From Actinacidiphila alni (lineage in GTDB: Bacteria; Actinomycetota; Actinomycetes; Streptomycetales; Streptomycetaceae), in NCBI RefSeq assembly GCF_900112845.1, contig NZ_FONG01000009.1:1-64000 (forward strand): a stretch of 64,000 nt of DNA, written 5' to 3'. Both the position numbers and the translations under genes were made by a program. This document shows, piece by piece, positions 5,833-50,182 of the stretch; position 1 is the first letter of the stretch, and every line of letters begins with the position of its first letter. Under the pieces are notes generated by a model. It had not been told where the DNA came from and did no database searches. It saw only the letters and a program-made list of their open reading frames with translations.

Positions 5833-5929
5833 GTGTGGTCTCCATGATCTCCGCGCGTCCTCCCCGCCGTCGAGGTCGAGGGGTGCGCGGCGATCATGTC
5901 ACAGCGGGGGTGTGCGGCCCACGGTCGTC

Positions 5930-6895
5930 TCAGTCCTTGTCGAAGGGCGGCGACTCGCGGCGCGGTGCCGGGGTCTTGGCGGCGGTGTCGCGGGCGCCGA
6001 GGCCGGCGCCGCCGCTGCCGGGGGCACCGGGGATGTTGACGATGCCGCCGAGGCCCTTGAGCGCGTCGTTCAGCTCGCTGGGGATGATCCACAGCTTGTT
6101 GGCGTCGCCCTCGGCGATCTTCGGCAGCATCTGGAGGTACTGGTACGCGAGCAGCTTCTGGTCCGGGTCGCCGGCGTGGATCGACTCGAAGACCGTACGG
6201 ATCGCCTGGGCCTCGCCCTCGGCGCGCAGCGCGGCGGCCTTGGCCTCACCTTCGGCGCGCAGGATCTGGGACTGCTTCTCGCCCTCGGCGGTGAGGATCT
6301 GGGACTGCCGGACACCTTCGGCGGTGAGGATCGCGGCGCGCTTGTCGCGGTCGGCGCGCATCTGCTTCTCCATCGAGTCCTGGATGGAGGTGGGCGGTTC
6401 GATCGCCTTCAGCTCGACGCGGTTGACGCGGATGCCCCACTTGCCGGTGGCCTCGTCGAGGACGCCGCGCAGTGCCGCGTTGATCTCCTCGCGGGAGGTG
6501 AGGGTGCGCTCCAGGTCCATGCCGCCGATGATGTTGCGCAGGGTGGTGACGGTGAGCTGCTCGATCGCCTGGATGTAGCTGGCGACTTCGTACGTCGCGG
6601 CGCGGGCGTCGGTGACCTGGTAGTAGATGACGGTGTCGATGTTGACCACCAGGTTGTCCTGGGTGATCACCGGCTGCGGCGGGAACGGCACGACCTGTTC
6701 GCGCAGGTCGATGCGGTTGCGGATGGTGTCGATGAACGGCACCACGATGTTCAAGCCGGCGCTGAGGGTCCTGGTGTAGCGGCCGAAGCGCTCGACGATG
6801 GCGGCGCTGGCCTGCGGGATCACCTGGACGGTCTTGATCAGCGCTATGAAGACGAGCACCACCAGGATGATCAGGACGATGATGATGGGCTGCAT
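5930..6895 (-). CDS. SPFH/band 7 membrane protein (paraslipin/QmcA type)
   Basis: This 321-aa protein has one N-terminal transmembrane helix (about residues 3-22), an SPFH/band 7 domain (IPQASAAIVERFGRYTRTLSAGLN) and a long Ala/Glu-rich coiled coil with tandem LTAEGxxQSQI/LRAEGEA repeats (about 195-250). Such proteins build membrane scaffolds and usually partner with NfeD proteins. The NfeD gene lies directly upstream on the same strand. A GGAG ribosome-binding site precedes the ATG. Confidence 0.93.
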   Translation of the reverse strand: MQPIIIVLIILVVLVFIALIKTVQVIPQASAAIVERFGRYTRTLSAGLNIVVPFIDTIRNRIDLREQVVPFPPQPVITQDNLVVNIDTVIYYQVTDARAATYEVASYIQAIEQLTVTTLRNIIGGMDLERTLTSREEINAALRGVLDEATGKWGIRVNRVELKAIEPPTSIQDSMEKQMRADRDKRAAILTAEGVRQSQILTAEGEKQSQILRAEGEAKAAALRAEGEAQAIRTVFESIHAGDPDQKLLAYQYLQMLPKIAEGDANKLWIIPSELNDALKGLGGIVNIPGAPGSGGAGLGARDTAAKTPAPRRESPPFDKD

Positions 6896-47825: not shown

Positions 47826-47934
47826 TGGGCACCTCCGAGCGGACCGGACTGGATTACCGAAGAGTAACCAATCGGATCCGCCTGCCGGACAGGGCCCTTC
47901 GAGCCCGGGCCCGTGGTGTCCGCCCGCGGAGCCG

Positions 47935-48156
47935 TCAGGCCGCGGTGGCCTTCTTGCCCCGTGTGGCACCGCCGCGACCGCGCAGGGTCACGCCGGACTC
48001 GCTGAGCATCCGGTGCACGAATCCGTAGGAGCGGCCGGTCTCCTCGGCCAGCGCCCGGATGCTCGCACCGGAGTCGTACTTCTTCTTCAGGTCCGCCGCG
48101 AGCTTCTCGCGCGCGGCGCCGGTCACCCGGCTGCCCTTCTTCAGAGTCTCGGCCAC
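47935..48156 (-). CDS. gbn: Gbn, GATC-binding nucleoid-associated protein
   Basis: A 73-aa basic protein with one helix-turn-helix (ASIRALAEETGRSYGFVHRM) and Lys-rich ends. It matches the small actinobacterial protein SCO1839, described as Gbn, a nucleoid-associated protein that binds sites with a GATC core and affects sporulation and antibiotic timing. The recognition helix is intact. A cluster of GATC sites lies just upstream. I rely on memory for the SCO1839 identity. Confidence 0.88.
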   Translation of the reverse strand: MAETLKKGSRVTGAAREKLAADLKKKYDSGASIRALAEETGRSYGFVHRMLSESGVTLRGRGGATRGKKATAA

Positions 48157-48583
48157 CCGTGCCTCCTCCAGGGAAGTGCGCTATGGACTCTCATGATCAC
48201 CCCTAAGGGCGTTCCTGGCCACCCATTCGACAAGGTCCATCACGGGACATTCACCGGAGGAATGCGCCGCATAGGCCGCTGCCAAGGCCCCGGAAGCGGC
48301 ATTTCCGGCCCGGCAATTACCGGCCGAGAACGGTTTGCGGGGAATATCGGCAGGTCAGCCGTGGTTGGTAAGGAGTTCCGCCACGTCACGCCACTGATCA
48401 CCGCGGCGCCCGGCCGTACCGGGCCGCGGGGGCGCGCGGTACGAGCCGGACTCACGCAGATGACGGATGATCAATGGGCCGAATGATCGAATCGGCATGA
48501 TCACCCGGCGCGGCGGCGTGCGGCCGGGGCCCGGGGCCGCGTAATGCCCCGGGCGGTCCCACGGCCTCGGGTCGGCGGCGGCC
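48157..48583. other. Intergenic region with clustered GATC sites
   Basis: No gene is supported in these 427 bp between gbn and the ABC-F gene, both on the minus strand. GATC occurs five times (48195, 48396, 48469, 48485, 48499), three of them within 34 bp, against roughly one expected at this base composition. The region is also less GC-rich than its surroundings around 48180-48320. Confidence 0.5.

Positions 48584-50182
<1,599 letters not shown>

Follow-up and report, generated by a model that had tools for sequence, protein, structure and literature searches.

Does Gbn, a protein with thousands of binding sites, govern the expression of its own gene, and if so, through which of the sites that lie before it? 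In Streptomyces coelicolor, these thousands of sites are accompanied by few direct effects on transcription (Du et al., PMC9239103), and the promoter of gbn (SCO1839) itself is strongly bound, with an enrichment of 67.75-fold at 25 h and 58.18-fold at 48 h and a summit at -326/-324 (Du et al. 2022, PMC9239103). The high-affinity consensus reported in that work is GATCWT, and in gel shifts Gbn retards a promoter fragment from -561 to -239 that contains eight GATC. Autoregulation is not mentioned in the sections of that paper considered here, and a literature search on Gbn, Streptomyces and autoregulation returned no paper. Here we analyse the front of gbn in a 64,000-nucleotide stretch of Actinacidiphila alni (hereafter the window; GC content 73%), in which a sequence-only reading had pointed to a cluster of GATC sites as a sign of autoregulation or as a nucleation site for Gbn. 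Occupancy of the gbn promoter by Gbn was known before; the conservation of the sites and their anatomy are new.

The gene in the window passes as the orthologue of S. coelicolor gbn, as it encodes a 73-aa protein with a single HTH_58 domain (Pfam PF19575, E-value 2.6e-33, residues 5-66) and adjoins an ABC-F gene, from which it is separated by a gap of 427 bp. It is the sole full-length copy in the whole genome. Of 416 confirmed relatives the best 80 were kept, a set that by this choice leans to close relatives; they are 93-99% identical, and the ABC-F gene precedes gbn in all 80 as it does in the window. The two systems share the same gene and the same upstream region, for which both Gbn occupancy and in vitro binding are reported in S. 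coelicolor (PMC9239103), and relatives such as L028 carry eight GATC in the stretch matching -561 to -239. Gbn of the present strain is expected, from its sequence identity to the S. coelicolor protein, to bind GATCWT, and the proposal that Gbn is the binder is well supported by the identity of the gene and by the published ChIP and gel shift on the matching region. No solved structure of a relative was matched at an E-value of 0.01. Elsewhere in the genome, a 325-codon open frame (G000:C14:15634-15972, loci L002 and L003) carries two tandem HTH_58 copies, and similar multi-copy frames occur in other genomes of the genus. Gbn also matches the model of the archaeal CRISPR-repeat-binding protein Cbp1 below its cut-off (35 of 140 bits, E-value 1.2e-8), and HTH_58 matches were obtained in the control genomes of Haloferax and Sulfolobus; both observations bear on the restriction to Actinobacteria that has been published for this family.

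Table 1. Features of the gbn locus in window coordinates, all on the minus strand; a position -n before the gbn start codon equals 48156+n.
Feature	Window coordinates	Relative to gbn start	Strand	Basis or remark
gbn	47938..48156		-	73 aa, GTG start at 48156, HTH_58 domain
Ribosome-binding site of gbn, GGAGGAGG	48162..48169		-	sequence, conserved
Proximal Gbn site GATCAT, proposed -10 box	48193..48198	-42..-37	-	conservation and register test
GTGGCC, proposed -35 element	48217..48222	-66..-61	-	18-bp spacer to GATCAT
GACCTTGTCGAAT, nearly invariant, just upstream of the -35-like element	48225..48237	-81..-69	-	81 aligned loci
AtrA-like inverted repeat GGAA-N7-TTCC	48292..48306	-150..-136	-	conserved in the family; AtrA site predicted for S. 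coelicolor gbn
CTGACCTG, conserved block	48351..48358	-202..-195	-	alignment of 81 loci
GATC without WT	48396..48399		-	poorly conserved
TCATCTGCGTGAG, conserved flank of distal array	48451..48463	-307..-295	-	alignment
Distal Gbn array	48467..48502	-346 to -313 (GATC triplet)	-	GATCAT at 48497-48502, 48483-48488 and 48467-48472
ABC-F ATPase gene	48584..50182		-	NF000355 above cut-off; upstream of gbn, same strand

The gap contains all five GATC in front of gbn (48195, 48396, 48469, 48485 and 48499), which span 308 bp, three of them falling within 34 bp (48469-48502), exactly as the sequence-only reading had counted. Its expectation of roughly one GATC was too low, the 398 GATC of the window amounting to 1.9 per 310 bp. 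When the gap itself was dinucleotide-shuffled 5000 times, the mean was 2.9 GATC per 427 bp and at least five occurred in 13%, while runs of five inside 308 bp are found 50 times across the window. Across the window, GATC is over-represented relative to dinucleotide shuffles (398 versus 272 expected), an excess that probably arises from codon usage. The published consensus GATCWT fits four of the five GATC, 48396 being the exception; the earlier reading had missed this extension of the motif. Four GATCWT in the gap were reached in 0.08% of the shuffles (P 0.0008) and three within 34 bp in 0.02% (P 0.0002); this triplet is unique in the window, which has one further independent stretch, at 5846-6119, where four GATCWT fall inside 308 bp. 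The whole genome has seven GATCWT triplets on one strand whose gaps measure 2-30 bp, and the six not associated with gbn are inside long open frames with every spacing a multiple of 3, whereas the gbn triplet, spaced by 16 and 14 bp, is out of codon steps and the tightest of the seven. Chance, or the somewhat lower GC content of the intergenic gap, would suffice for five plain GATC, whose enrichment is unremarkable against shuffles of the same DNA (P ~0.13) and was discarded as a signal; for the GATCWT sites this explanation is refuted by the composition-preserving shuffles and by the class-wide and family-level conservation described below, and we assign it a negligible probability.

The search for Gbn relatives covered 60 genomes of the order and 118 of the class, 28 of the latter being without a match. 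Loci that duplicated the window or were other than gbn (L001-L003, L095, L114-L124) were excluded. The Streptomycetaceae set comprised 154 loci, or 148 once identical 450-bp upstream sequences had been removed. The class-wide set comprised 88 loci of 27 families, drawn from 75 of the 80 matching genomes outside the family and 13 of the same order; five genomes with weak or partial matches (G096, G134, G147, G159, G196) were left out, and one locus (L188) has just 256 bp of upstream sequence. When the gap was aligned in the window and 80 relatives (the best 80 of the 416), separate conserved blocks emerged: the distal array with its flank, CTGACCTG, the AtrA-like repeat and a proximal block that hardly varies, within which GATCAT lies at about -42/-43. 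GATCWT is present at -46 to -40 in 153 of the 154 Streptomycetaceae loci, and the longer pattern GGTGGCCA-N17-GATCATG in 145 of the 148 distinct ones. Outside the family, GATCWT was found at -110 to -20 in 74 of 88 loci, and in the majority of loci in 24 of the 27 families, compared with 249/2963 (8.4%) of other windows of the same loci, 56/523 (10.7%) of windows further upstream, and a mean of 10.8 and a maximum of 20 of 88 loci when the same -110 to -20 stretches were shuffled. The proximal site was absent in the remaining 14 of the 88 loci. An N-terminal extension of gbn across the -42 site was ruled out by one-base length differences among relatives, which shift the frame.

GATCAT of the proximal site agrees with TATAAT in 4/6 letters, and together with GTGGCC it forms a promoter-like layout, followed by a short leader with a good ribosome site; GTGGCC fits TTGACA poorly, and a consensus scan called no sigma-70 consensus promoter. 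In most loci the proximal GATCWT reads along the coding strand and in some it is turned (AWGATC). A TGGC-like element, T[GA]G[CT], stands at one fixed distance upstream in all 148 distinct Streptomycetaceae loci and in 53 of the 88 loci of the class (17 of 27 families), against 0-5 of 88 at 24 other shifts, the pattern having been derived from the very loci in which it was counted, so that only the turned sites constitute a held-out set. The exact register is missing in 35 of 88 loci, and five families with at least two loci each (6, 15, 16, 27 and 35) have no register match. For the held-out test, a profile of the element was learned from 60 GATCWT-oriented sites and applied to 25 AWGATC-only sites of 12 families. 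It peaked only at a shift of -3 (family-averaged score -0.6, versus -6.2 to -2.9 at 28 other shifts), which was the best shift for 14 of the 25 sites, in 5 of the 12 families, the remaining sites having theirs elsewhere. A peak at -3 means that the distance is held constant to the hexamer NAWGAT rather than to GATC; like a -10 box, this hexamer carries A as its second and T as its sixth letter. The proximal site is therefore most likely the -10 box of the gbn promoter. Judged by sequence, the promoter-like arrangement at gbn is common across the class, not universal. The exact pattern TRGC-N19-GATCATG has four matches in the genome, the three others lying inside open frames of 460-574 codons, and no further gene with a gbn-type promoter was found by it. 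For promoter replacement in S. coelicolor, the native gbn promoter was taken as -157 to +4 (PMC9239103).

The same register might mean that the hexamer is retained solely for its role as a -10 box, with its match to GATCWT a coincidence, since the spacing tracks the hexamer rather than GATC, and since locus L234, compared by eye with its relative L238, has GAACAT in place of GATCAT, so that the hexamer can persist without GATC. We regard such a coincidence as quite unlikely: a -10 box requires no GATC, the full GATCWT is nevertheless present near the start, in either orientation, in 74 of 88 loci, and the gene it adjoins is that of the protein binding just this word.

In contrast with the proximal site, the distal array appears to be a feature of the Streptomycetaceae. 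At least three GATC within 40 bp are found between -390 and -230 in 120 of the 148 distinct loci of the family and in 0.47% of 3426 control windows, and the core GATCATTYGG is present in 142 of the 148. An extended core, GATCATTCGG-N3-A-N4-TGATC, occurs without mismatch in 20 of 35 genomes of the genus, always beside gbn and nowhere else, whereas with up to two mismatches it has matches elsewhere too; the window carries one mismatch to it, its third GATC being shifted by 3 bp. In the class-wide set, GATCWT between -300 and -110 averages 0.47 per locus versus 0.18 in control stretches, with at least two in 10 of 88 loci, a signal so weak that upstream arrays were rejected as a class-wide rule and the array is assigned to the Streptomycetaceae. 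Differently laid-out GATC arrays precede gbn in other families (L158-L160 and L167, -136 to -49; L178-L189, -155 to -113), as if arrays beside the proximal site had arisen more than once. A small ORF across the array, starting at an ATG at -341, was ruled out, as that ATG is not conserved. The sequence-only reading had tied its case to conservation near gbn in relatives, and the comparison did not refute it, the array being conserved in the family and the proximal site recurring across the class. It had put its emphasis on the distal triplet; the single proximal site at 48193-48198 is more widely conserved and mechanistically more telling.

The distal triplet coincides with the published S. 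coelicolor ChIP summit at -326, and the -561 to -239 fragment used in the gel shift excludes the proximal site (PMC9239103). The position of the summit, at the array and not at -42, counts against a repressor acting at the -10 box, as do the extent of the gel-shift fragment and the published mutant, in which only 9.5% of strongly bound promoters changed versus 6.9% overall (PMC9239103). An alternative view is that the sites do no more than load or sequester Gbn, as seems to hold for most of the thousands of others, with gbn output independent of them: the summit is 270-300 bp upstream of the putative promoter, and most bound promoters were unchanged in the mutant (PMC9239103). Binding of this inert kind would leave the single promoter register of the proximal site across families unexplained, and we consider it unlikely. 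As to what the array does, Gbn binding to a fragment with ten gbn promoter sites hardly altered its conformation in tethered-particle experiments (PMC9239103); given these data, which show no compaction, neither looping between array and promoter nor the nucleation site suggested earlier is favoured.

Between array and promoter, the gap holds an AtrA-like repeat, found at -200 to -100 in 96 of 148 Streptomycetaceae loci and in 3 of 7173 control windows. An AtrA site has been predicted for S. coelicolor gbn (PMC9239103), and by the GGAA-N7-TTCC form in front of it gbn of the window is likewise a putative AtrA target. GACCTTGTCGAAT, which is perhaps an activator site, and CTGACCTG have the letters GACCT in common. 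No terminator-like hairpin or intrinsic terminator was found in 47900-48700, where the sequence-only reading had supposed that read-through from the ABC-F gene would be affected. A known structured RNA was rejected, the single Rfam match being sub-threshold, on the other strand and in the coding region. The position of the repeat would suit positive autoregulation, in which polymerase, or an activator such as AtrA, is drawn in with the help of the array and Gbn boosts the expression of its own gene during sporulation, as would the published rise of gbn expression with development (PMC9239103). A site on the -10 box, however, should block rather than help, and the average effect of promoter-bound Gbn is a general, mild suppression (PMC9239103); we hold activation by Gbn to be very improbable. 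In other published work, gbn was raised in a HupA/HupS double mutant (PMC11472566), and gbn and ccr1 had no mutual effect (PMC11272600).

We consider it rather probable that the GATCWT sites are operators of gbn, with the proximal one as the -10 box that Gbn occludes and the distal array as an auxiliary. GTGGCC would act as the -35 element and GATCAT as the -10 box, with a transcription start predicted near -30 (about 48186). Gbn bound to the proximal site would exclude RNA polymerase, so that Gbn probably represses its own gene in simple negative autoregulation, and the level of Gbn would be capped as it rises in development. Against this reading stands the rise of gbn in development despite the presence of the protein at that stage (PMC9239103). 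The distal array is probably the strong Gbn-loading site, raising local occupancy, and most likely serves as an auxiliary operator, holding Gbn close to the promoter with no looping involved. If the amount of Gbn is capped in this manner, developmental induction must depend on other factors; the candidates here are the AtrA-like repeat and the GACCTTG block. As would be expected of negative autoregulation, the predicted site of the gene product is part of its own putative promoter and conserved there, and the recurrence of this arrangement across many soil-bacterial families suggests a limit set by Gbn on its own synthesis. Forced gbn expression postpones sporulation by ~17 h, and loss of the gene speeds development by 2-5 h (PMC9239103), which shows why such a cap could be useful. 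The autoregulation proposed earlier is thus strengthened by conservation and by the overlap with a probable -10 box; a measurement of the gbn promoter both in the presence and in the absence of Gbn was not found in the literature searched, the published deletion having removed the gene itself and left the gbn table entry blank (PMC9239103).

Sites in their own promoters likewise limit the synthesis of other nucleoid proteins, as in the autoregulated fis and hns genes of E. coli. Gbn differs from these in being an unrelated protein, of the HTH_58 type, with sequence-specific recognition of GATCWT, and in that at gbn, across many families of the class, one site and the -10 box appear to have merged. 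The sections of the S. coelicolor paper used here (PMC9239103) contain neither the -42 site, nor its -10-like overlap, nor conservation beyond S. coelicolor, and no description of a promoter-embedded site or of its class-wide spread was found in the literature searched. A further possibility, which we offer tentatively and think doubtful, is that Gbn recognises a -10 look-alike and that its ancestral job was to switch off promoters with GATCWT -10 boxes, its own first, an arrangement kept since before many families of the class split. If true, the direct regulon of Gbn would consist of the promoters with such -10 boxes, so far masked by the thousands of chromatin sites that are silent.

Because the Gbn site and the -10 box are apparently the same letters in many families, the gbn promoter offers a concrete place to test direct repression, and it gives a rule for picking the few Gbn binding sites that should matter. 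Autorepression at this promoter would explain how the amount of Gbn, a protein that influences when sporulation occurs, is held in check.
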